Below, one piece after another: positions 51,954-64,000 of a stretch of 64,000 nucleotides of DNA (its first letter is position 1; each line of letters begins with the position of its first letter). The stretch is from Alphaproteobacteria bacterium LSUCC0396 (GTDB lineage: Bacteria; Pseudomonadota; Alphaproteobacteria; Puniceispirillales; Puniceispirillaceae). The translations under genes were made by a program, and so were the position numbers. Location of the stretch: NCBI GenBank assembly GCA_041228345.1, contig CP166131.1:992001-1056000 (forward strand), in the 5' to 3' direction. Under the pieces are notes generated by a model. That model saw only the letters and a list, made by a program, of their open reading frames with translations. It was not told the origin of the DNA and made no database searches.

Positions 51954-52655
51954 TTAATGGAGACCAGCTCGAAGGGAATAGCCACTACCACGCACCGTTC
52001 GAATTAAATTTGGCAATGAACCGTCGCCAGTATGATCAAGTGCTTTTCGAAGACGGCTTAGATGCACGTCAACCGTGCGCTCCTCCACATAAACACCATG
52101 CCCCCAAACAAGATCAAGGAGTTGAGCGCGACTAAACACCTGGCCTGGTCGTTCAATAAGAATCGATAAAAGGTGAAATTCCTTAGGCCCTAACGGAACC
52201 AACACATTCCCACGGTAAACCTCCACGCGGCTCGGGAACAACCGCAAATCTTCAAATTCCAGGACATCACTCATCGATGCAGGCTTAGACCTGCGCAACA
52301 ACGCTTTAACTCTTGAAACCAACTCTCGGGGTGAAAAGGGCTTCGTCATGTAGTCATCAGCGCCAGTATCTAACCCCAAGGTTCGGTCGCCCTCTTCTCC
52401 GCGGGCACTAAGGATTATTACAGGCAGATATCTTGTCTCGTTACGTGATCGCAAGAGCCTGCATAATTCAATACCAGAAAGGTGGGGCATCATCCAATCT
52501 AACACCGCTATATCAGGCCGCCTATCTTCAATCGCCGCCATTGCTTGCTGACCATCTGAGGCAGAAACCACCTCAAAGCCTGCCTTCTTCAAATTAAAAG
52601 AGAGCAGTTCTAATTGATTTATTTCATCGTCAGCGATTAATACTTTAGCCAGCAT
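51954..52655 (-). CDS. phoB: Phosphate regulon response regulator PhoB
   Basis: A 233-residue OmpR-family regulator. The receiver domain has the acidic pocket IADDE, phospho-acceptor D53 (VLDWMMP) and Lys in YMTKPFSP. The winged helix carries VWGHGVYVEERTVDVHLSRLRKAL and ends IRTVRGSGYSL. It activates Pho-box promoters when phosphorylated by PhoR. Last gene of the pst operon, 17 bp after phoU. The 51777-51953 region downstream has a weak GCCTC/GAGGC hairpin without a U-tract. Confidence 0.95.
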   Translation of the reverse strand: MLAKVLIADDEINQLELLSFNLKKAGFEVVSASDGQQAMAAIEDRRPDIAVLDWMMPHLSGIELCRLLRSRNETRYLPVIILSARGEEGDRTLGLDTGADDYMTKPFSPRELVSRVKALLRRSKPASMSDVLEFEDLRLFPSRVEVYRGNVLVPLGPKEFHLLSILIERPGQVFSRAQLLDLVWGHGVYVEERTVDVHLSRLRKALDHTGDGSLPNLIRTVRGSGYSLRAGLH

Positions 52656-52672
52656 TTCAAACCACCCTCAAA

Positions 52673-53383
52673 TCAAGCCCCCAAAACCCTGCTAGTTCTA
52701 TCGGCCTTTGGTCGGTCTTCTTCAGGCACGTGGCCCCTAACTAAGAAATGGACTTGCTCTGCGATGCCAGTGGCATAATCGCCAATCCGTTCAATATTCT
52801 TCGCTATGAAAAGCAAGTGCGCACCAGTAGCCACCATATTTGGATTTCGTGACATTGATGCAAGCACCTCTTTGTAAAAAGCGGTGTGCATGTGATCGAC
52901 CTCAACATCACGGCTCCATACCTTTAGTGCCATCTCAGCATCATTATGCTTTAAGGACAGCATCACATCACGAACCATTTCCAGAGTAACATGCCCCATA
53001 CGGCCAATATTAACACCGGGAATATTTTCGTTACCTAATTCAGAAAGAACCCTGGTGCGGTTGGCGATATTGCGTGCATAATCCCCCATGCGCTCAAGGA
53101 TGGTCGCAATTTTCAATGACACAAGTACATAGCGCAAGTCCTGTGCCCGGGGGGCTCTTATAGCAATAATTTCAATTGCCTTTTCATGTATTTCAGCTTC
53201 TATTTTATCGAGTGCGGCGTCGCCTGTAATTACGGTGTCCAAAATAGCGTCATTCTGAGTTGCCAAACCTTCAATAGCTTTATCAAATTGATTACTCGCA
53301 AGCAAACCAAGCTCTTGCAATAAGTCGTTTAATAACTCTAAATCTTGATCGAAAGCAGAGCTGATGTGTTTTGAGTTGTCCAT
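52673..53383 (-). CDS. phoU: Phosphate signalling protein PhoU
   Basis: A 236-residue helical protein of two PhoU repeats with the E/D-rich metal-binding motifs (ILERMGDYARNIANRT, NIERIGDYATGIAEQV). It links PstB and PhoR and keeps the regulon off when phosphate is plentiful. 8 bp after pstB. Confidence 0.95.
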   Translation of the reverse strand: MDNSKHISSAFDQDLELLNDLLQELGLLASNQFDKAIEGLATQNDAILDTVITGDAALDKIEAEIHEKAIEIIAIRAPRAQDLRYVLVSLKIATILERMGDYARNIANRTRVLSELGNENIPGVNIGRMGHVTLEMVRDVMLSLKHNDAEMALKVWSRDVEVDHMHTAFYKEVLASMSRNPNMVATGAHLLFIAKNIERIGDYATGIAEQVHFLVRGHVPEEDRPKADRTSRVLGA

Positions 53384-53391
53384 TTTTTGTC

Positions 53392-54174
53392 CTAACCAAT
53401 TTTACCTGAAATGTAGGCCTCAGTCTGTTCATTTTTTGGCAAAGTAAATATATCTTTGGTGTTGCCATATTCTACCATCTCGCCAAGGTGGAAATATGCT
53501 GTTTTTTGCGATACCCGAGCTGCCTGCTGCATTGAATGAGTTACAATTAAAATAGTAAAACGCTGCTGCAACTCGCTTATCAATTCTTCAATCACAGAAG
53601 TTGCTATTGGATCCAGTGCTGAGCAAGGCTCGTCCATTAATAGGACATCCGGGCCAATCGCAATTGCACGGGCAATACAAAGACGTTGTTGTTGACCACC
53701 AGAAAGACCCGTTGCCTGGTCGGCTAACCTATCGGCAACTTCTTTCCAAAGACCCGCCTTTTTCAAGCTATCTTCGACTACTTCATCAAGTTCATTTTTA
53801 TTTTGTGCAAGACCATGAATGCGCGGCCCATATGCGACGTTATCATAGATAGTTTTGGGAAAAGGATTAGGTTTTTGAAAAACCATGCCGATACGCGCCC
53901 TCAACAAAACAGGATCCACGTCAGGGCTATTAACATCAACATCACCCATGAGGATTTTTCCTTCCACCCGGCAGGAAGGAATTACGTCGTTCATTCGGTT
54001 AAAACACCGAAGGAACGTTGATTTTCCACAGCCGGAAGGTCCAATAAATGCTGTAACAGAACGGTCCTCAATATCGATGGACACGCTGTTCAACGCCTGT
54101 TTTGCGCCGTAGAAGACGTTGACGCCGACTGCACTAAGTTTAACCGCCTTAGCTGTTTCCGCTACCGAGTCCAT
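53392..54174 (-). CDS. pstB: Phosphate ABC transporter ATPase PstB
   Basis: A 260-residue ATPase. Walker [10 protein letters not shown], signature LSGGQQQR, Walker [14 protein letters not shown] and switch His VTHSMQQA are present. Start ATG 54174, 7 bp after the pstA stop. A TTG at 54198 in frame would overlap pstA and is less likely. Confidence 0.95.
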
Positions 54175-54181
54175 TTTTACG

Positions 54182-55501
54182 TTACCACTTCTTCTCAAAT
54201 TTTCGGCGCAAGAGAACAGCCGAGATATTCATTGTGATCAAAAAAGTCAAAAGCACCATGATGGCCAATGACGAGCGTTCGTAGAACGCTCTTTCTGCGC
54301 TATCCGACCATATGTAAATCTGAACTGGCAACGCTGTTGCTGGGTCAGTGAGGCTGGCAGGAACATCAACTATAAATGCCACCATTCCTATCATTATAAG
54401 CGGTGCGGTTTCGCCAAGTGCCTGCGCTATACCAATAATTGTTCCTGTCAGTATACCTGGTGCAGCTAGGGGCAACACATGATCTGTTGCCGCTTGCATA
54501 CGCGAAGCGCCAAGTCCAAGAGCAGCGTCTCGAATTGAAGTTGGCACAGCTCGAATAGATGCTCGGGTTGCAATAATGATGGTTGGCAATGTCATCAAGG
54601 CAAGCACCATACCGCCAACCAAAGGCGCTGAACGTGGCATACCAAAAAAACCAAGGAATACAGCCAACCCTAAAAGACCGAATACAATTGATGGCACGGC
54701 TGCAAGATTATTGATGTTCACCTCAATAAAATCTGTAAGCCGTCCGGGTGGCGCAAAGTATTCAAGATACACGGCTGCCATTACTGCCAGTGGCAGTGCC
54801 AACAACACGGTAATCAATAACGCCATTGCCGACCCAACAGTCGCACCCAAAACTCCTGCACTTTCTGGCTCTCGAGAGTCGGCTGCAGTAAAAAATGTCT
54901 TGTTGAAAACCTTACGGATCCTATCATTTTTGACCAGCACATCTATCCAGGCGAGCTGTTGGTCTGTTAGCCGCCGCTTGGACTGATCGATACTCCGATC
55001 CATGCGGCCCTTCATAAGCATATCTACATCGTCTGAGGCTTTGATCCATATCTTAGTTTTGCCCGCGGATGGGCTGCTCATCGCCTCGATTTGCTTACGT
55101 AAATCGTACCCAGCATTTTCCGAAACAAGTTCACCAAGCGCCCTCTGGTCGAGCATACCTGTGACCTCTGGAAAATCAGCGCGAAAAGCTTTCTTAATCA
55201 ATCCATTCCAGTTGAATTCCCTTGTCCTTTCGAGATCTAGGTCACCCTCTTTATTTAAGAGTTTTTCCAAAGGAAGTGTAACTTCAACCTGCAATTCTGT
55301 TTGCTTCAAAGCGGTGTAGCCATTACTGACAATGGTTGTTAATAAAATCGTTAGAAAACCGATAGCAATTGCGATTGCAAGAACACCGTAATTGCGCAGT
55401 CGTTGGGAAGCAGCGTGACGCTTTTTCAAACCCTGAGAAATTTTTATGAACCGAGCTTCAGTTTGATTATCGAGCTTTATCATTGTAACTGGATCACTCA
55501 T
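54182..55501 (-). CDS. pstA: Phosphate ABC transporter permease PstA (long form)
   Basis: A 439-residue permease. The first ~190 residues hold a cytoplasmic N terminus, one membrane segment ([20 protein letters not shown]) and a large hydrophilic, presumably periplasmic, part. This long form, with a DUF3333-type region, is usual in alphaproteobacteria. The permease core follows, with coupling motif [20 protein letters not shown]. Start ATG 55501 overlaps the pstC stop by 8 bp (ATGAGTGA). Confidence 0.92.
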
Positions 55502-56909
55502 AACGCTGCCCCAATCTTCGCGATGCAGTGAGAGCTGCAACATTCAACAACAACGTAATCACAAATAAAGTGATGCCGAGCGCAAATGCAGAAAGGGTTT
55601 TGACTGAGTCGAATTCGTTATCACCAGTGAGCAACATAACGATTTGCACAGTAACTGTTGTTACGGACTCCAAAGGATTAACTGTCATATTCGCTGCAAC
55701 GCCGGCTGCCATTACCACAATCATCGTCTCACCAATGGCTCGACTTATGGCAAGCAAAAATGCGCCAACAAGACCAGGGAATGCAGCCGGCAAAACAACC
55801 CGCATAACTATCTCTCCCCTGGTGCTACCTAGCCCATAAGCACCGTCACGCAATGACTGTGGTACTGCAGTAATAACATCATCTGAGAGAGAAGAGATAA
55901 AGGGTATGATCATTATACCCATTACACCTCCGGCAGCGAGCGCACTCTGCGACGATACATCCAACCCAACAAAAAGCCCAAGATCTCGGAAGAATGGCGC
56001 AGCAGTTAGTGCTGCAAAAAACCCATAGACGACAGTAGGGATTCCAGCAAGCACCTCCAGAGTTGGCTTAATAACATTGCGGACCCGGCGCGGAGCAAAC
56101 TCCGACGTATAGATAGCTGAAAACAGTCCGATCGGAACGGCAACCAGCATAGCGATGACTGCCACGAGCAATGTGCCTACCATCACCGGCACCATGCCGA
56201 ATGAGCCAGTTGACCCCGCTACGAATTCATCCTTGGCACCAACTGCGCCTTCTCGAAGCGCAGTCATTGGTGCCCAATGCGTACCAAAGAAAAAATCAAT
56301 CAAAGAGATTTCACGGAAAAACCTAAACGCCTCAAACAACAGAGACAAGACAATACCAATAGTTGTGAGAATGGCTATGCCTGCTGATAAGAAGAAGAGG
56401 CGGCGCAAAAATGTTTCGCATTGAATACGTGCACGAAACTCCGGAGAAACCCGCCTGTATGAGTAAAAAAATCCAATACACATTACTGCAGCAAGAGTTA
56501 ATATCCGAGCACGATCCGTTGTGGCCTGAGCCCCAACGAGCAACTCCGCTTGAGCAGCCATAATGTCATCAGGCGCTTTTATATAACCAGCGGCAATATT
56601 GCCAAGCTGTGCCATTTTTAGGCTAAGAAAGGAGTCTGGAAGATTTGGATAAGCAGCTGCCATCCTAACCTTGGCAGCGCTCATTAGCATCGGGTCTGCC
56701 ACGAACATCCAAATCAGGGCTAGAAGTAATGCTGGTATAAGAACCCACAAGGCCACATAGTAACCGTAGTATTGTCTGAGAGAATGCGCTTTCCCTTGGC
56801 CAGAAACACTCTTTTTGTGCACTCGATTCACAGCTAAGTAAAAAGACGCAATCGAGGAAACGACGGTGGCAAAAAAAACCAAAAAGTTTGTTGAAAAAAA
56901 AGTGTCCAT
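55494..56909 (-). CDS. pstC: Phosphate ABC transporter permease PstC (long form)
   Basis: A 471-residue permease with extra N-terminal segments: a first membrane helix, a KKSVSGQGKAHSLRQYYGY cytoplasmic stretch, a second helix and a ~90-residue hydrophilic part, as in other alphaproteobacterial PstC. The core has coupling motif DGAYGLGSTRGEIVMRVVLP. Start ATG 56909 (a TTG precedes). It follows pstS across a 193-bp gap with a terminator-like hairpin. Confidence 0.92.
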   Translation of the reverse strand: MDTFFSTNFLVFFATVVSSIASFYLAVNRVHKKSVSGQGKAHSLRQYYGYYVALWVLIPALLLALIWMFVADPMLMSAAKVRMAAAYPNLPDSFLSLKMAQLGNIAAGYIKAPDDIMAAQAELLVGAQATTDRARILTLAAVMCIGFFYSYRRVSPEFRARIQCETFLRRLFFLSAGIAILTTIGIVLSLLFEAFRFFREISLIDFFFGTHWAPMTALREGAVGAKDEFVAGSTGSFGMVPVMVGTLLVAVIAMLVAVPIGLFSAIYTSEFAPRRVRNVIKPTLEVLAGIPTVVYGFFAALTAAPFFRDLGLFVGLDVSSQSALAAGGVMGIMIIPFISSLSDDVITAVPQSLRDGAYGLGSTRGEIVMRVVLPAAFPGLVGAFLLAISRAIGETMIVVMAAGVAANMTVNPLESVTTVTVQIVMLLTGDNEFDSVKTLSAFALGITLFVITLLLNVAALTASRRLGQRYE

Positions 56910-57043
56910 CAAATCCTACAAACACAAAGCTCGGTTCACCTGTTTCAAGGCCTACCCAGTGTCAAATCATTTATTCGATATTTGAAGCCTAAAGCGATGA
57001 CTTTATCATTCGGCCATTGGTTTATCACTTATAGTGCTCAAAG

Positions 57044-57084
57044 AAAAGGCATGCCACACATTCCTATCAAAAATGCGGCATGCC
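57044..57084 (-). terminator. Intercistronic terminator/attenuator between pstS and pstC
   Basis: GGCATGCC at 57048-57055 and again at 57077-57084 (self-complementary, so the two pair), with inner ATT/AAT pairing. On the minus strand it is followed by TTTTCTTT. It lies 18 bp after the pstS stop and should give more pstS than pstCAB mRNA. Confidence 0.75.
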
Positions 57085-57102
57085 CTTACCGAGCGGTGTC
57101 GC

Positions 57103-58128
57103 TTAGAGCGAGTTACGTGCTGAAACTTGCTTCGCAAAATCGTCTTCAGACAATGGCACAAGACCAGCAGGGAAAAGGTAACCGTCTAAACCCATGGCTT
57201 TCTCTGAGACAAACTCGTTGATGAATTCCTTCATACCTGGGATCACACCAACGTGGGCTTTCTTCACGTAGAAGAAAAGTGGGCGGGCACCGGGGTATTT
57301 GTAGGACGCAATGTTTTCAAAGTTCAAATCAACACCGTCAAGCACAGAAGCCTGAACCTTGTCACGGTTCTGATCAAAGAAAGAATATCCGAAGATACCA
57401 AACATATTTTGGTCAGCAGCGAGTTTTTCGATGATAAGCGAGTCATTTTCACCGACTTCAATAGCGGCTCCATCTTCCCGAAGCTTTTTATAACCATCGC
57501 CCTTCAGGCCCAACTTTTTCCAGCCATTCTTCATAAACAACTCACCCATGGCATCGCGAGTTCCTGAGGTTGGTGGGGGAACCATAATTGACACTGGGAT
57601 ATTCGGCAAGCCTGCAAGCGCCTGGCCAGTTACCTTGGCGACATAACTATCAACCTGATCCCATGTCTTCAGTCCGTTTGCCGTTTCATTGGAAACGTTT
57701 GCTGCAACCTGGTATGGCAACGTAGCCGCCAAAGCAGCGGCGATGTGTGCGACAGAGATTTTAAAAGATTGACCGCTTAGGCTGTTGGAGAAAGCAATAC
57801 CATCGTTGCCGACAATAAACTCCTGAAACTCAACACCAGCATTCGCACACAATTTGGCTTCTGAACTCTTCATTGCTCGCGATGCGTTAGTTACGTCAGG
57901 ATGCTCAACGCCAACGCCTTTGCAAAACAACTTCATACCACCGCCGGTTCCGGTTGACTCGATAACTGGTGTCTTGAAACCACTGGATTGGCCAAATTTC
58001 TCTGCAACAATTGTCGCAAAAGGGTAAACTGTTGATGATCCTACAATTGAGATCTGGTCTCTGGCTTGCGCCACTGTTGTTATTGCAAGGCTCGCAACAA
58101 CGCCCGCGAAAAGAGAAGTAAGACGCAT
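57103..58128 (-). CDS. pstS: Periplasmic phosphate-binding protein PstS
   Basis: A 341-residue solute-binding protein with a signal peptide (RLTSLFAGVVASLAITTVAQA, cut near RDQ). Phosphate-binding loops are SIVGSSTVYPFA, STGTGGGMK and PPTSGTRDAMGELF. It is of the longer alphaproteobacterial PstS type. AGGAG stands at good distance before the ATG. A four-repeat Pho box lies 74 bp upstream. Confidence 0.94.
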   Translation of the reverse strand: MRLTSLFAGVVASLAITTVAQARDQISIVGSSTVYPFATIVAEKFGQSSGFKTPVIESTGTGGGMKLFCKGVGVEHPDVTNASRAMKSSEAKLCANAGVEFQEFIVGNDGIAFSNSLSGQSFKISVAHIAAALAATLPYQVAANVSNETANGLKTWDQVDSYVAKVTGQALAGLPNIPVSIMVPPPTSGTRDAMGELFMKNGWKKLGLKGDGYKKLREDGAAIEVGENDSLIIEKLAADQNMFGIFGYSFFDQNRDKVQASVLDGVDLNFENIASYKYPGARPLFFYVKKAHVGVIPGMKEFINEFVSEKAMGLDGYLFPAGLVPLSEDDFAKQVSARNSL

Positions 58129-58201
58129 ATTAAACTCCTGAAATTTGAATTGCCCAAATGAAACTGTTCATTCGGTAGTCCGGCGTTGTTAAATACTGGA
58201 G

Positions 58202-58241
58202 ATGTCACTTTGATTACAAATTTATTACAGATTTGTGACAA
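58202..58241 (-). promoter_or_regulatory. Pho box upstream of pstS (four 7-bp repeats)
   Basis: On the minus strand: TTGTCAC-N4-CTGTAAT-N4-TTGTAAT-N4-GTGACAT, with all repeats in 11-bp phase, which is the PhoB site design. A -10-like TATTTA follows at 58190-58195. It lies between phoR and pstS, so pstSCAB-phoUB have a PhoB-driven promoter separate from phoR. Confidence 0.85.
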
Positions 58242-58265
58242 AACAAATTTAATCAATAATGATAG

Positions 58266-59348
58266 CTAAGAAATAAGATCATTAGTGGCTTTTGAAACTG
58301 GTACAGTTGGAAAGGCAACGGAAAATTTCGTTACATCATTTACTTTGCTCTCGATTGAGAGATAGCCACGATGTTTGTTGATGATATGCTTAACAATGGC
58401 AAGTCCGAGCCCTGTTCCGCCAATCTGGCGTGAACGCGCCTTGTCGACTCGGTAGAATCGTTCGGTCACCCTCGAAATATGACGTTCTTCGATCCCCTCA
58501 CCAAAATTTATGACATCAATCTTAACTTTTCTTGGGTCGGTAACTTGGGCCGACAAAATAATTTCACTACCCTCGTAACCATATTTGATTGCATTCTCGA
58601 TTAAATTAATGAAAACCTCTGTAATTTCATCGTGATTGCCAAATATCAATGGTCGGATAGCGTCCACAGCATCTCGTTCTTCATCATCCTGATCTTTGTC
58701 AGTTCGCTGTAACATTTTAAATTTTATTGACATGTTTTTTTTGCGGGCTTGGCCCGCCAAGGAATCACAAACAGCGCTTAATAATTGATTAATATTAATA
58801 ATTTTTTCCGGGACGATATGCTCCTCAACCTCAACCCTTGATAAGGATAATAAATCATCGATTAGCCTCGACATGCGCTTGGCCTCTTCATCCATTATGC
58901 CCAGAAATCTTTTTTGCATTTCCTGATCATGGATATCCCCCTCTAACATCGTCTCCACGAAACCAGCGAGGCTAGTGAGAGGGGATCGCAATTCATGACT
59001 AACATTTGCGACAAAATCACGCCGAACATTTTCCAGATTTCTTTGCAATGTCATGTCCAAAAAAAGAAAAGCCACAAGGTTTTTGCCCACCCGTTTCATA
59101 CGCACCTTGAATTGCTGCTCAACGATGCTTTTCGGTTCATATACAAATTCAATGAATTTTGTTTCACTAACGGCCCTGTTGAGTAGCAACATGAGGTCGC
59201 TGCGATCGATTAAATCGCAAATGTTACGGCCTGTCAGATTTTCACCCAACCACCTCACAGCTACTGAGTTGGTCGATGTGATAACTCCATCAAAATCAGT
59301 CAAAATCAAAGCATCATCAAGCATCGAGGCTAATTGACGTATTTTCAT
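58266..59348 (-). CDS. phoR: Phosphate regulon sensor kinase PhoR, without membrane segments
   Basis: A 360-residue histidine kinase. A PAS domain (about residues 5-100) is followed by the dimerisation/phospho-acceptor helix with H118 (ANVSHELRSPLTSL) and the ATPase domain (NLIENAIKYG, GEGIEERHISRVTERFYRVD, GGTGLGLAIVKHI). No N-terminal membrane helix is seen, unlike textbook PhoR, which has one or two. It should therefore be soluble or bind the membrane through PhoU/PstB. It stands 137 bp upstream of pstS. Confidence 0.92.
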   Translation of the reverse strand: MKIRQLASMLDDALILTDFDGVITSTNSVAVRWLGENLTGRNICDLIDRSDLMLLLNRAVSETKFIEFVYEPKSIVEQQFKVRMKRVGKNLVAFLFLDMTLQRNLENVRRDFVANVSHELRSPLTSLAGFVETMLEGDIHDQEMQKRFLGIMDEEAKRMSRLIDDLLSLSRVEVEEHIVPEKIININQLLSAVCDSLAGQARKKNMSIKFKMLQRTDKDQDDEERDAVDAIRPLIFGNHDEITEVFINLIENAIKYGYEGSEIILSAQVTDPRKVKIDVINFGEGIEERHISRVTERFYRVDKARSRQIGGTGLGLAIVKHIINKHRGYLSIESKVNDVTKFSVAFPTVPVSKATNDLIS

Positions 59349-60067
59349 CTGCTTTCTCCGATCTCACGGCTACATAGCTTGTGATTTAAAGGTCAACGCC
59401 TTTTAAAGCCCGCCTATACACTGCGATTTGAATGCATAACAAAAGCAACGCGTGGAAGCCAAGCACGGAAATAAAATCGATGTGACAAATAAATAAAGGT
59501 CGGCACAATTAGGTGCCGCATTCACATAATTTACGCCTTACTGCAATATCTTTTTAATATTGCTGTGTTAACGAAATAATATGGCGGAGTGTGATGCCAG
59601 CGTTGAAATTGGCCTTAGACGCTTACAAGTTCAAAACTGCTTATTCAATACTGCAGCTAACCAAAGTTAATTCTGCATGAGTTCTCTGAAGACTAAGCGT
59701 CTTTAAATAAGGTAACCAGGTAAAAAATGATCAAAATCCTTGAAGCAAAAATCAGCTACATAATCGCCATGGTTGGCTTTTGGACGTTATACCAACAGAA
59801 AAAACGTCTTTGTAAAAAACACCCCTTACGCCGTTTGTCGTTTTAGGATCAGATAAACTCACATGGCAAAATAAAAGTGTGAAGATTGTCACAGCGCTCA
59901 TAATTACGTCGCCGCCTCTTTGTTTTTATGCATGGGATTCTTGGATTACTAACATCATGGTCTCGGCGGTGAGCATAAGTTTAGTTGACAGTCCTCTTGC
60001 TCAAGTTCCTATTCAGTCCACCTTCCAAGGGTTAAGGCAGCTAAACTTTATAATTAAATAAAAACGC
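59349..60067. other. 719-bp intergenic region upstream of phoR
   Basis: AT-rich gap between phoR and the glycosyltransferase-kinase gene. It contains a 6-bp-stem hairpin (CGGCAC/GTGCCG, 59501-59518, no U-tract), a half Pho-box-like TTTGTCA on the minus strand near 59481-59487, and a possible 39-residue frame (59727-59846). A 60-codon frame at 59879-60061 starts with GTG and looks random. It probably holds the phoR promoter. Confidence 0.5.
59727..59846 (+). CDS. Possible small membrane protein, 39 residues
   Basis: ATG 59727 with CCAGG seven bases before it. The predicted peptide has a hydrophobic segment (ISYIIAMVGFWTLY) followed by a strongly basic tail (QQKKRLCKKHPLRRLSF). The shape fits a small single-pass protein, but there is no family support and the gap is AT-rich. 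Low certainty. Confidence 0.25.
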   Translation: MIKILEAKISYIIAMVGFWTLYQQKKRLCKKHPLRRLSF

Positions 60068-61480
60068 CTACTCCCCAAACAACCATCTCCAAACAAATAA
60101 AAAGTGGGTTGTTGCACACACGATTAGAGCAATCATTACAGCAGCGCTCCCGTAATCCTTTGCTCGTTTTGATAGTCCGTGATTTGACAATGAGATTCGG
60201 TCCACTGCAGCTTCTATACCGCTGTTCAGAAGCTCAACTATCCAGACCAGCGCTATTGTTATCAGCATCAAGGCTGTCTCTAATGCGCTAACCGGCAACA
60301 GCAGCGCTGTTGGAACAAAAAAAACTGCAAGAAACACTTCCTGACGAAAGGCACTCTCCTCACGAAATGCATGAATTAGCCCGGATAACGAATTTTTGGC
60401 AGCTGCAAAAACACGTTTCAGTCCCTGGTTCGACTTATGGGGGTTATCGGAAAAGTGATATTCACCCGGCCGAGACCTTGCCTGAACCAAATGATTTTCG
60501 AAAATCAACGTAGCGGCCTGCCAAGAAAACTGTTCAGCATGTGCGCGCACCAGTTTTCGATCAATATTCAGTGCTTCAAGACAAGCTGCTCGAAGGTCAT
60601 GATTTAGAGCCCCTGCACCCGACATGCCAATCACATCAATTGGCCCAGTCACCGGATACGCAGCAACTGGCAAACCACAGCCCATAGCCTCCAATAACAC
60701 AAGCCCGAACGTGTCAGTCTTGCTAGGAAAGACAAAAACGTCCGCATCATTATAAAATTTGGGAAGTTCAGCCATTTGCCTTGAGCCATGAAAAACTGTT
60801 TCAGGAAAGCGCGCTTGCAACGCCAACATCGCAGGGCCATCACCCACAACATGCTTTTCACCAGGCAAATCCAATGACAAAAAAGCTTCAAGGTTTTTCT
60901 CTACTGAGACTCGACCAACATAAATGAAAACTGGTTTTTTCTTTGCCTTACCTTGTATTTGCGGTCTTTCTGTTGGTTTAAAGAGATCAAGATCAACTCC
61001 CCGTGGCCATAGAACTGGCCTCCCAACTCTCCATTTTGATAAATCATCAATAACTGTCTGCGTTGGCGCCATTACTAGGTGGGAGGCACCGTGAAACCAG
61101 CGAAGAAATGAGTATGTCACAGCAAGCGGCAGCCTAACACGGGAGCGGACATACTCTGGAAACCTAGTGTGATAAGCGGTGGTAAAAAGAAACGAATTTT
61201 GTTTTGCAAACTTTCTAGCAGCGAGCCCAAGAGGCCCTTCGGTTGCAATGTGGATAAAATCGGGCTTCAGCTGCTGAATAATAGATCCAACTTTCCGACC
61301 CGGCAATACCGCTAATCGAATTTCTGGATAGGTAGGGCAAGGAATAGTCTTGAAAGCCTCAGGCGTTATCATCTCAACAATGTGGCCCATGGACCGCAAA
61401 TGATCCCGTGTCATTGTTAATGTTCGAACTACACCATTGACTTGCGGATGCCAGGCATCGGTTACAATTAGGATTTTCAA
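60068..61480 (-). CDS. Fusion of GT4 diacylglycerol glycosyltransferase (Agt-like) with a DgkA diacylglycerol kinase domain
   Basis: A 470-residue two-domain protein. Residues ~1-340 are a GT4 glycosyltransferase (VTDAWHPQVNGVVRTL at the N terminus, IYVGRVSVEKNLEAF, and the donor motif FPSKTDTFGLVLLEAMGCG). Residues ~350-470 are a complete DgkA-type membrane kinase with three hydrophobic segments. The key residues of E. coli DgkA are kept: EESAFRQE, VELLNSGIEAAVDRI and SKRAKDYGSAAV. The first part would add sugar to diacylglycerol freed by PlcP. The second would phosphorylate diacylglycerol to phosphatidate. It starts with TTG 61480, overlapping the plcP stop by 3 bases, so the two are coupled. 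Confidence 0.85.
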   Translation of the reverse strand: MKILIVTDAWHPQVNGVVRTLTMTRDHLRSMGHIVEMITPEAFKTIPCPTYPEIRLAVLPGRKVGSIIQQLKPDFIHIATEGPLGLAARKFAKQNSFLFTTAYHTRFPEYVRSRVRLPLAVTYSFLRWFHGASHLVMAPTQTVIDDLSKWRVGRPVLWPRGVDLDLFKPTERPQIQGKAKKKPVFIYVGRVSVEKNLEAFLSLDLPGEKHVVGDGPAMLALQARFPETVFHGSRQMAELPKFYNDADVFVFPSKTDTFGLVLLEAMGCGLPVAAYPVTGPIDVIGMSGAGALNHDLRAACLEALNIDRKLVRAHAEQFSWQAATLIFENHLVQARSRPGEYHFSDNPHKSNQGLKRVFAAAKNSLSGLIHAFREESAFRQEVFLAVFFVPTALLLPVSALETALMLITIALVWIVELLNSGIEAAVDRISLSNHGLSKRAKDYGSAAVMIALIVCATTHFLFVWRWLFGE

Positions 61481-62340
61481 AGTTTAATTCCCTGCGTTCG
61501 TGACGCGAATATCACTTGTGCATCAGGGTTTGAAAAGTTTTCTTCGGGTAGATTGAGCCCATTCTGTTTTTCGAACCCTGACCCAAGATTTTTGTGCCAG
61601 TCAACCAGCTCAAGTTTTCCATCAGTATGCTCAACAAGCGCAGAAATTGACTCAACCCAGTCACCATCATTGGCATATAAAATATCATCAATATAGCGAA
61701 GCTCAGGCTTGTGGATGTGGCCGCAGACGATACCATCACAGTTGCGCCGGCGTGTCTCAGTGACCATGACATGTTCGAAAGCTGAAATAAAAGAAACTGC
61801 CGACTTCACTCTCAACTTCAGATATTGAGACAGTGACCAATATGGTAAGTTTAACCAATTGCGAATTTTATTTAACAAACGATTTAGCTTAAGCAACACT
61901 CCGTAGGCATGGTCACCAACATAAGCTAGCCAGCGTGCGTGCTGAATTACATGATCAAAGAGATCACCATGCACCACCCACAATTTGAGGCCGAGTTTTG
62001 TTTCATGAACATGATCTCTCTTGATCCAAATTTCACCAAATTTCATGCCAACATATTCACGTGCAGCTTCATCATGATTGCCCGGAATGAAATATACCTT
62101 CGTGCCATGTCTGGCTTTCCGTAAAATTTTCTGAACAACATCGTTATGCGCCTGTGGCCAATGCCATCGCCGCTTGAGTTGCCAGCCATCTACAATATCC
62201 CCCACGAGATAAAGATATTCACTGCGTGTATGTTTTAAAAAATGCAATAGGAACTCGGCTTGCGCCCCTGGCGTTCCAAGATGAGTATCTGAAATCCAAA
62301 TCGCTCTGTAGGTTAAAACTTGTTGACCGTTTTCATTCAT
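61477..62340 (-). CDS. plcP: PlcP-type phospholipase C (calcineurin-like metallophosphoesterase)
   Basis: A 287-residue metallophosphoesterase of the LpxH-like fold. Metal motifs are D18-x-H20 (ISDTHLG), G47-D-x2-D51 (VGDIVDGW), G87-NHD90 and later VVHGDLFD and GHIHKPEL. This group includes PlcP, which cuts head-group phosphate esters from membrane phospholipids under phosphate starvation. Start ATG 62340 is preferred. The frame continues to 62406, but a Pho box at 62412-62429 would leave no room for a promoter. Linkage to an Agt-like gene and the pho/pst block supports PlcP over a lipid A enzyme. Confidence 0.83.
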   Translation of the reverse strand: MNENGQQVLTYRAIWISDTHLGTPGAQAEFLLHFLKHTRSEYLYLVGDIVDGWQLKRRWHWPQAHNDVVQKILRKARHGTKVYFIPGNHDEAAREYVGMKFGEIWIKRDHVHETKLGLKLWVVHGDLFDHVIQHARWLAYVGDHAYGVLLKLNRLLNKIRNWLNLPYWSLSQYLKLRVKSAVSFISAFEHVMVTETRRRNCDGIVCGHIHKPELRYIDDILYANDGDWVESISALVEHTDGKLELVDWHKNLGSGFEKQNGLNLPEENFSNPDAQVIFASRTQGIKL

Positions 62341-62411
62341 TAGATCGGCCTGGCCCGTTAGAAGTCCACAATCTGGTAGCGATCTGGTATTACAATTTTG
62401 ATACACTTATT

Positions 62412-62429
62412 TGACAAATGCGTGACAAA
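62412..62429 (-). promoter_or_regulatory. Pho box upstream of plcP
   Basis: On the minus strand: TTTGTCA-CGCA-TTTGTCA, two identical 7-mers in 11-bp phase, 72 bp before the plcP ATG. A TAATAC -10-like hexamer lies at 62387-62392. The 329-bp region 62341-62669 is the divergent plcP/olsF promoter region and holds no gene. Confidence 0.8.
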
Positions 62430-62535
62430 TTTGTTCAACACGGCTCTGCACAGACATCTCCGCATTGCAAAATCAATACCTTCAGGTGGAACCAAAAAAC
62501 TGGTCAATCACCAACTTTGTAATTGAACTTTACCT

Positions 62536-62553
62536 TTGTCATATTTTTGAAGC
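62536..62553 (+). promoter_or_regulatory. Possible weak Pho box upstream of olsF
   Basis: TTGTCAT-ATTT-TTGAAGC on the + strand, about 117 bp before the olsF ATG. The first 7-mer fits well and the second poorly, so this is only a candidate. The strong site at 62412 might also serve this side. Confidence 0.35.
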
Positions 62554-62669
62554 ATTCATCCGTTAATGACGGATTTGGTCTTAATTTTTTCACATTTGCT
62601 AGAATTCTTTGACTGCATCACAGCGCAGCTAGCAATAACGAAAAGTGCGATTGTCCTGTGGGGGCGCAA

Positions 62670-64000
62670 ATGCTTGATAATTTCGATTATGTTGTCAAAA
62701 AAATTGACACAGGGAAAATTCTGGAAAACCACGTTACTGGTTTCAAAAAATACCCCTCAATTCTTCGCACGATTGTGAAATACTTTTTGAGGGCTTTGGT
62801 AAGAGAAAAAGCAATCAACGATTTTCTTGAGGCCCATAAATATACTCGGAATTTTGATTTTATCGATGCCGTCTTCAATAGAATAAAAATTGACTGTCAC
62901 ATAAAGCAAAATGAAATCCAAAACATCCCTGCGCGAGGGCGAGTTTTAGTTGTAGCCAACCATCCCTTAGGCGGCATTGATGGGTTAACTCTTTTACGAG
63001 TAGTAGGTATGGTTCGGCGAGACGTAAGGATCGTGGCAAACAACATATTAATGTCAATTGATCCACTCGAAGGGTTGATGTTACCAGTAAACTCTTTCAG
63101 CGGTAACACAAGAAAAGCGGACATTGATCGAATCACGCAAGCACTTGAGAATGATGAGGCTGTAATCATCTTCCCGTCGGGGGAGGTGTCTCGTGCAGGA
63201 GCCAAAGGTATTCGCGATCGAAGCTGGTTACCTGGTTTTCTCAAGATTGCTGAAAAAACTTCAGCCCCAATATTACCGATATTTGTTAAAGGAAGAAACT
63301 CTGCTCTTTTCTATTTAACATCCAGAGTCAGCCAAGTAGCGTCTATGCTTCTACTTCCGAGAGAGATGCTAAATTACAAAGGAAAGATTGAACTTATTAT
63401 CGGGCAATCGATCGAGGCAGAAACACTTTTCAAACTACCACTTCAGCGTAAGCAAATTGCACAATTAGTTAGCAAACATTTGCGGAGTCTTGGGAGCAAA
63501 AAAGCTCCAGTTTTTGAGACAAAAAAGAGTATAATCCATCCTGTTGAAAGACAAAGTTTGCGCAATGCTCTTCAAAAAGCTGAGCAGCTCGGCGAAACTG
63601 CTGATGGGAAAAAAATACTCCTTGCCGAGTATGATGAACGTTCACCAATAATGGATGAAATTGGGCGGCTACGTGAAATGACATTTCGCGCAGTTGGAGA
63701 AGGCACGGGAAAACAAAAAGATCTCGACCATTACGACCGGTATTATCGACACCTAATTCTTTGGGATGACGCTTCTCTTGAGATAGCTGGCGCTTATAGA
63801 TTAGGAGAGGTGTGGCGTTGGTCAGATCAATCCCCTGATCACCTCTACTCAAGCAGTCTTTTTGAATATAAACCCAACATGAAGGCGCTACTCAATGAAG
63901 GGTTAGAGCTTGGCCGTAGTTTTGTTCAACCACAATATTGGGGCCTTAGAAGCCTTGATTATCTGTGGCAGGGCATTGGTGCATATTTACACTCAAACCA
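62670..64000 (+). CDS. olsF: Bifunctional ornithine lipid synthase OlsF-like (acyltransferase plus GNAT N-acyltransferase), 3' end outside window
   Basis: 443 residues are visible and the frame is open at the right edge. The N-terminal half is a PlsC-like acyltransferase with NHPLGGIDG (H98..D104) and the FPSGE motif (168-172). From about residue 315 there is an OlsB-like GNAT domain (AEYDERSPIMDEIGRLREMTFRAVG, HLILWDD, IAGAYRLG, ELGRSFVQPQYWG). This order matches OlsF, which adds both acyl chains to ornithine and makes phosphorus-free ornithine lipids. Divergent from plcP and close to pst/pho, so phosphate control is likely. ATG 62670 is preceded by a GGGGG tract. Confidence 0.78.
   Translation, partial: MLDNFDYVVKKIDTGKILENHVTGFKKYPSILRTIVKYFLRALVREKAINDFLEAHKYTRNFDFIDAVFNRIKIDCHIKQNEIQNIPARGRVLVVANHPLGGIDGLTLLRVVGMVRRDVRIVANNILMSIDPLEGLMLPVNSFSGNTRKADIDRITQALENDEAVIIFPSGEVSRAGAKGIRDRSWLPGFLKIAEKTSAPILPIFVKGRNSALFYLTSRVSQVASMLLLPREMLNYKGKIELIIGQSIEAETLFKLPLQRKQIAQLVSKHLRSLGSKKAPVFETKKSIIHPVERQSLRNALQKAEQLGETADGKKILLAEYDERSPIMDEIGRLREMTFRAVGEGTGKQKDLDHYDRYYRHLILWDDASLEIAGAYRLGEVWRWSDQSPDHLYSSSLFEYKPNMKALLNEGLELGRSFVQPQYWGLRSLDYLWQGIGAYLHSN

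Follow-up and report, generated by a model that had tools for sequence, protein, structure and literature searches.

Why would a bacterium join an Agt-like glycosyltransferase and a complete DgkA diacylglycerol kinase in one polypeptide, when each would be expected to draw on the same lipid? The question is raised by a gene, here called agt-dgkA, in a 64,000-nucleotide stretch of the genome of Alphaproteobacteria bacterium LSUCC0396 (CP166131.1, positions 992,001 to 1,056,000; hereafter the window), a probably marine member of the order Puniceispirillales. Lipid renovation by PlcP and Agt is established, and it is one way in which marine heterotrophs save phosphorus. The passages we covered do not explain how diacylglycerol (DAG), the intermediate shared in that pathway, is held at a tolerable level or recycled into phospholipid. 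We find that the fusion has been conserved in two alphaproteobacterial lineages, and we consider it probable that the protein is a two-headed, Pho-linked enzyme acting where the use of DAG branches during lipid renovation under phosphate starvation.

The open reading frame encodes 470 residues from a TTG start that overlaps the stop codon of the upstream plcP gene by 4 bases. Its product matches the Pfam families Glyco_transf_4 at residues 14-165 (4.4e-20) and Glycos_transf_1 at residues 172-292 (2.6e-19), both above cut-off, followed by DAGK_prokar (PF01219) at residues 363-460 (4.1e-30; 104.1 bits against a cut-off of 22.3), a match that covers positions 2-99 of the 102 in the profile. In a phmmer comparison with PDB sequences, E. 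coli DgkA matches residues 341-465 (E 6.2e-22). The two domains are separated by a short linker: the transferase runs to about residue 335, and a conserved NP[HY]K.N.G stretch at residues 346-353 is assigned to the DgkA side because unfused DgkA neighbours elsewhere begin with a similar stretch. The original prediction, made from the sequence of this stretch, had proposed a single 470-residue protein joining GT4 and DgkA domains, and Pfam, the PDB match and the conserved frames described below all confirm it. It had also named a sequencing frameshift or joined genes as the case that would undo it. Unfused homologues do exist, and one metagenome-assembled copy (G025; genomes, loci and families are given by our own handles) carries an internal TAA, but the same fusion was assembled independently dozens of times, among others in G019 and G037, which likewise consist of a single contig. 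Because the full-length protein recurs in relatives and in a second family, chance and misassembly are ruled out and the fused frame is genuine; an artefact or a misjoining of two genes is refuted for any practical purpose.

The distribution of the fusion was followed outward from its own genome. There (one contig, 2.59 Mb) this DgkA is the only one present, and a profile search that was positive in 13 of 14 control genomes returned no DAGK_cat match. The full-length protein occurs in 18 of 61 relatives, counting its own genome and G025 with its one internal TAA, and the transferase alone in 5 of the 61 at E <1e-90. Within the family, DgkA was found in 14 of 61 genomes, every one in a frame of 471-503 amino acids (aa). 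Within the order it was found in 47 of 136, with frame lengths of 464-503 aa in 46 and of 194 aa in the other (G501). Transferase and kinase form one frame in 34 of the 35 loci read among those 46, G025 being split by its TAA; for the remaining 11, G039 and G042 are known as full-length matches and nine were judged from frame length and the position of PlcP. The fusion is also present in 13 of 32 genomes of a second alphaproteobacterial family (f12; genomes of 0.9-2.0 Mb), which we presume to be the HIMB59 clade; two further f12 genomes carry the halves as separate genes, and one has DgkA with no adjoining transferase match. In a class-wide sample, 55 of 385 genomes have DgkA, five of them in frames longer than 300 aa, and all five are the fusion. 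A phylum sample, with DgkA in 211 of 398 genomes, held no other transferase-DgkA fusion among the matches listed. The check for GT4-DgkA architectures and their gene neighbours suggested with the original prediction thus yields a fusion conserved in two alphaproteobacterial lineages.

Several candidates for other fusions were rejected. Genomes G834 and G836 have DgkA frames longer than 300 aa with the transferase in another frame upstream, and in G737 and G726 frames of such length show no match to the window transferase. Among 461 matching plasmid records, the one that covers at least 80% is a Sulfitobacter faviae record encoding a 25%-identical one-piece glycosyltransferase, which we took as no fusion. 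A contig scan with the single fusion protein gave only two distant transferase matches (33-36% identity) and no close named relatives. Presence is patchy even within the genus and species, as expected of a flexible island: of 16 listed genomes, only G000 and G002 have plcP and DgkA, while neither gene was found in a same-species bin (G068; 94% complete, 1.8 Mb) or in the near-complete G008, G009 and G010.

Across the order, the kinase closely tracks plcP. PlcP was found in 57 of the 136 genomes, and DgkA in 46 of these 57 against 1 of the 79 that have no plcP (Fisher p 1.7e-24, from a test that ignores kinship and incomplete bins). Comparison of coordinates by eye placed the PlcP and DgkA matches of each of these 46 genomes no more than about 2 kb apart, on one contig and one strand, and in every fused locus read (35/35 in the order and 13/13 in f12) the frame of PlcP abuts or overlaps that of the fusion. 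The single genome with DgkA and no plcP, G501, shows 5% contamination, its DgkA groups with those of f12, and the contig that carries it may be stray or contaminating. This DgkA (G501:C66; L059/L131) lies near a phoR. Within the order, then, the kinase is part of the PlcP pathway and missing where that pathway is missing, and the converse is not strict.

By sequence, both halves of the protein are putatively competent. From a list of 18 E. coli DgkA residues that affect catalysis, given in the part of PMC4703834 available to us, the window DgkA keeps 16. In an alignment of 41 fused rows (28 from the order and 13 from f12), 15 of the positions are invariant and A100 is kept save in one gapped row; position 83 is Ser in all 41 fused rows and in 11 of 21 stand-alone rows, and position 8 varies. 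The earlier statement that the catalytic residues are kept thus stands in the form of a near-complete set, and the motifs then quoted are present, FRQE belonging to a longer EESAFRQE that holds the equivalents of E28 and E34. Of 7 close pairs, all have lower nonsynonymous (dN) than synonymous (dS) divergence in the transferase part, and 6 have it in the DgkA part, where dN slightly exceeds dS in the remaining pair (L012/L013). A low-confidence model of the protein has helices at residues 347-371, 377-393, 397-431 and 438-468, and hydropathy exceeds 1.6 at 377-424 and 443-468, both in the DgkA part; the transferase part has no strong peak.

Over 328 aligned positions, the transferase shares 47.9% identity with a glycosyltransferase whose gene immediately follows that of PlcP on a P. 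aeruginosa plasmid. The latter is very probably Agt1 (PA3218), an identification made from gene order, in which the adjacent pair matches PA3219/PA3218, and not from a locus tag. This relation to a demonstrated DAG glycosyltransferase bears out the Agt-like assignment made at the outset. In the portions of the sources available, purified Pseudomonas Agt1 converts DAG and UDP-glucose to glucosyl-DAG with no DgkA part (PMC8528852), Agt of A. tumefaciens forms glucosyl- and glucuronosyl-DAG (PMC3972451), and SAR11 Agt forms both lipids in E. coli (PMC4796936). The sugar used by the window transferase could be glucose or glucuronic acid. A PlcP-like gene lies under or beside the Agt-like match on three P. 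aeruginosa plasmids (NZ_CP137508.1, our L150; NZ_CP042268.1; CP075839.1), where it is annotated as UDP-2,3-diacylglucosamine diphosphatase.

A kinase gene also accompanies plcP and agt in unfused form. Nine genomes of family f219, which are all the f219 genomes listed with DgkA, have a plcP-agt-dgkA operon. In f219 genomes G807 and G886 (L146, L147), transferase and kinase occupy one frame with a single TAA between them in an otherwise full-length match, a state close to fusion in which, speculatively, read-through could give a fused product. The two f12 genomes with separate genes have the same plcP-agt-dgkA order, the ATG of the kinase following four bases after the stop of the transferase. 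Two f191 genomes have the order dgkA-plcP-agt, and in three f34 genomes (G114, G341 and G418) dgkA is divergent from plcP-agt at a distance of about 0.7-1 kb by match ends.

In a DgkA tree (121 columns, quick method), the fusions of the order group with the f12 and f219 sequences in one clade with support 97, and the f191 DgkA joins E. coli DgkA with support 95. Because two DgkA lineages are thus found beside PlcP-Agt, the link arose at least twice. The tree was rooted by choice on the DgkA of G114, and its groupings concern the other sequences. In the transferase tree, transferase-only and split rows fall inside the fused group, and a single fusion event never followed by loss or splitting is rejected: forcing all 42 fused transferase rows into one clade gives p 5.7e-38 in the approximately unbiased test. 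A tree in which the 13 f12 fusions form one clade that excludes the unfused f12 pair is acceptable (p 0.38), so that the pair may be older or may be a later split, both being compatible. Of the order's 46 fused genomes, 29 are represented in the transferase tree and 28 in the DgkA tree; from the DgkA set, 3 of 81 rows were dropped (L006 for a stop, L035 as short and L047 by the length-or-stop rule).

The fusion stands inside a phosphate-starvation island (Table 1) that holds two routes to phosphorus-free lipids. Its compact order of phoB, phoU, pstBACS, phoR, agt-dgkA, plcP, olsF, ppk2 and a CYTH-CHAD gene spans window positions 51954-63998 and continues to about contig position 1,059,600; olsF is divergent from plcP, and ppk2 and then the CYTH-CHAD protein lie beyond it. 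By sequence, the gene upstream of the fusion is PlcP-like rather than LpxH: LpxH models give its product 34-38 bits against cut-offs of 190 and 134, and its identity with the P. aeruginosa protein in the PlcP position is 50.0% over 234 positions. Its true start is probably the ATG at 62340 (residue 23), because homologue matches mostly begin at residues 12-33. The original prediction, which put the fusion downstream of PlcP, is supported by plcP lying directly upstream; the setting is that of a Pho regulon.

Pho-box-like sites were scored with a consensus from the accessible part of PMC8528852, and p values come from shuffles of single bases. A site upstream of plcP reaches p<=0.05 in 15 of 34 distinct loci, including 9/9 f219 operons and 1/2 transferase-only loci, and some relatives have stronger sites than the window at a similar distance upstream of plcP. 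Pho control of the pathway is likely, and that of this gene is putative. Elsewhere in the island, PstC (55494-56912) and PstA (54182-55543) are long, at 472 and 453 aa, with permease models matching from residues 168 and 212 on, and the roughly 720 bases between the fusion gene and phoR (59349-60067) contain no listed open reading frame of at least 80 aa and no Rfam match.

Table 1. Features of the fusion gene and the surrounding phosphate island, in window coordinates
Feature	Position	Strand	Basis
agt-dgkA fusion gene, 470 aa, TTG start	60068..61480	-	Open reading frame list, Pfam, PDB sequence search, full-length relatives
Agt-like GT4 glycosyltransferase domain, residues 1-335	60476..61480	-	Pfam and identity to P. 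aeruginosa homologue
DgkA domain, residues 346-465, with predicted surface helix and three membrane helices (low-confidence model, hydropathy)	60086..60445	-	Pfam, PDB, residue check
plcP-like phospholipase C gene	61477..62406	-	Metallophos Pfam; 50.0% identity to P. aeruginosa PlcP-position protein
Weak Pho-box-like site (10 of 14) upstream of plcP	62411..62428	-	Shuffle p 0.095
olsF, bifunctional ornithine-lipid synthase, 587 aa in genome, runs past the window	62658..63998	+	763 bits, cut-off 620
phoR	58266..59348	-	TIGR02966, 292 bits (cut-off 334)
Three overlapping Pho-box-like repeats (11, 11, 10 of 14) upstream of pstS	58202..58241	-	Consensus scan
pstS, pstC, pstA, pstB	53392..58128	-	PstS 113 bits, below cut-off 207; PstC, PstA, PstB above
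phoU, phoB	51954..53383	-	PhoU above cut-off; PhoB 288.5 against 296.2

In the scheme that we consider probable, PlcP would strip phospholipid headgroups and leave DAG, which the GT4 head would convert to a phosphorus-free glycolipid by transfer of glucose and/or glucuronic acid from a UDP-sugar, and which the DgkA part would phosphorylate with ATP to phosphatidate, leading on to CDP-DAG and phospholipid synthesis. By analogy with the E. coli enzyme, the DgkA part would be a membrane trimer with its active sites at the cytosolic interface. E. coli DgkA is described, in the part of PMC4703834 available, as trimeric, with active sites that open where membrane meets cytosol and an N-terminal surface helix at the membrane interface; a transferase at the N-terminus would thus probably sit over the same DAG pool. 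Fusion would fix the two heads at a 1:1 ratio, place both of them on one DAG pool and give a trimer bearing three transferase heads. Because one phosphate is spent per DAG, we place the role of the kinase arm in DAG control and phospholipid rebuilding: it would probably keep free DAG low and allow essential phospholipids to be kept or rebuilt, or alternatively it may act mainly on refeeding.

A more modest explanation is that the fusion has no channelling or switching role, and couples only the amounts of two enzymes that work independently on a bulk DAG pool. The unfused plcP-agt-dgkA operons, whose DgkA residues are equally conserved, fit this explanation, as do the two f12 genomes with closely spaced separate genes. 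Set against them is the retention of the fusion by many genera of the order and by a second family, which suggests a benefit of physical coupling, and we give simple coupling of amounts a substantial chance that falls somewhat short of even. The original prediction further held that DgkA anchors the transferase in the membrane. Anchoring as such follows from the architecture, but a need for it does not, because purified Agt1 works without DgkA and transferase-only homologues adjoining plcP are common. One might go further and regard the DgkA part as mainly a trimeric membrane anchor whose kinase activity is incidental or lost, an idea favoured by the contrast in hydropathy between the two parts. 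Related GT4 enzymes presumably lack an obvious membrane helix as well. This idea seems unlikely given the 16 retained catalysis-affecting residues, the invariance of 15 of them among the fused rows and a dN below dS in the DgkA part of 6 of the 7 close pairs. Nor would it sit easily with a DgkA part that is the sole recognised DAG kinase of its genome, with separate dgkA genes in the same operon elsewhere, or with the activity of Agt1 on its own.

The kinase might instead act on another lipid alcohol, such as a polyprenol, or on DAG from another source, for example headgroup transfer of the MdoB/EptA type. The DgkA fold includes the undecaprenol kinases of Gram-positives, and MdoB and EptA belong to the sulfatase superfamily, of which nine family matches are present in this genome. 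The DgkA matches in the PDB, however, are all named diacylglycerol kinase, and DgkA tracks plcP in the order and is linked to plcP-agt in several lineages; a different substrate or source is therefore improbable.

The branch-point reading must also be weighed against a number of observations that run counter to it. Eleven of the 57 plcP genomes in the order (eight of genus g7, together with G024, G041 and G044) have no DgkA, and renovation can thus run without the kinase. Among the best 30 of 55 DgkA matches in the class, which together with three more (G114, G341 and G418) are the neighbourhoods examined, 24 of the 30 have no PlcP or transferase match within about 1.5 kb, some of these loci being cut by contig ends. 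Of the 20 f191 genomes listed with DgkA, 2 are among the strong transferase matches, and some genomes (e.g. G141, G294, G365 and G442) have an Agt-like transferase and a distant DgkA. The tie between DgkA and plcP therefore does not hold for bacteria at large. Within the protein, T8 and G83 of E. coli DgkA are replaced by K and S, and the AlphaFold2 single-sequence model has a mean pLDDT (predicted local distance difference test score) of 38, too poor for domain arrangement. Only 5 of the 15 fused loci in the order, and 0 of 8 in f12, have a Pho-box-like site that passes 0.05, and the site of the window's own plcP is weak (p 0.095). The kinase arm costs ATP phosphate during phosphate famine, and both activities of the fusion are inferred from sequence. 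On balance, we still regard the two-headed branch-point enzyme as the probable reading.

We advance two extensions of this reading together, with distinctly more reserve, as a tentative possibility. The fusion may be a self-balancing DAG switch, in which a DgkA trimer carrying three transferase heads at its cytosolic rim would split the DAG made by PlcP according to the supply of ATP versus UDP-sugar. At the same time, DAG kinase may be an overlooked third step of the PlcP-Agt pathway, recruited several times in unfused form, in varied gene orders, from varied DgkA lineages and as a fusion, and making renovation reversible. The fused transferase-kinase and the recurrent plcP-agt-dgkA operons name a candidate for DAG control and so make this question testable. 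They also suggest that island genes which have been published as LpxH and as not directly related to phosphorus may be interpreted afresh.

Compared with what has been described, the fusion appears to be new as far as our searches reach. In the open-licence PMC literature we found no paper on a transferase-DgkA fusion or on a DgkA step in the PlcP-Agt pathway, in keeping with the earlier claim that no enzyme of this kind had been described; domain databases may list the architecture. The word "kinase" does not appear anywhere in the main text of PMC4796936 or of PMC8528852, and in the accessible part of PMC13086504, where dgkA and plcP both appear, we found no link between them. The phosphate islands of HIMB59 contain pstSCAB-phoU, accompanied in some versions by PhoR-PhoB, LpxH, a glycosyltransferase and a diacylglycerol kinase, the last two being called without direct phosphorus-related function in the part of PMC10734472 available, and "fused" and "plcp" have 0 occurrences in that paper. 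In likeness to those islands, the f12 loci with enough flank (L128 and L171), from what is probably the same clade, have plcP and the fusion near phoR. With E. coli DgkA, the window DgkA shares a full-length domain and 16 of the 18 catalysis-affecting residues; it differs in standing behind a 335-residue transferase, in having Ser at position 83 and in belonging to a separate clade of plcP-linked DgkAs. The closest likeness is to the PlcP-Agt pathway itself, represented by Agt of A. tumefaciens, Agt of SAR11 HTCC7211 and PA3219-PA3218 of P. aeruginosa: there, as in the window, plcP lies directly upstream of an Agt-like GT4 gene in a Pho-regulon setting, and the window pair is 48-50% identical to the Pseudomonas pair. 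What sets the window apart from that pathway is that its transferase carries, fused to it, a DgkA with a near-complete catalytic set.
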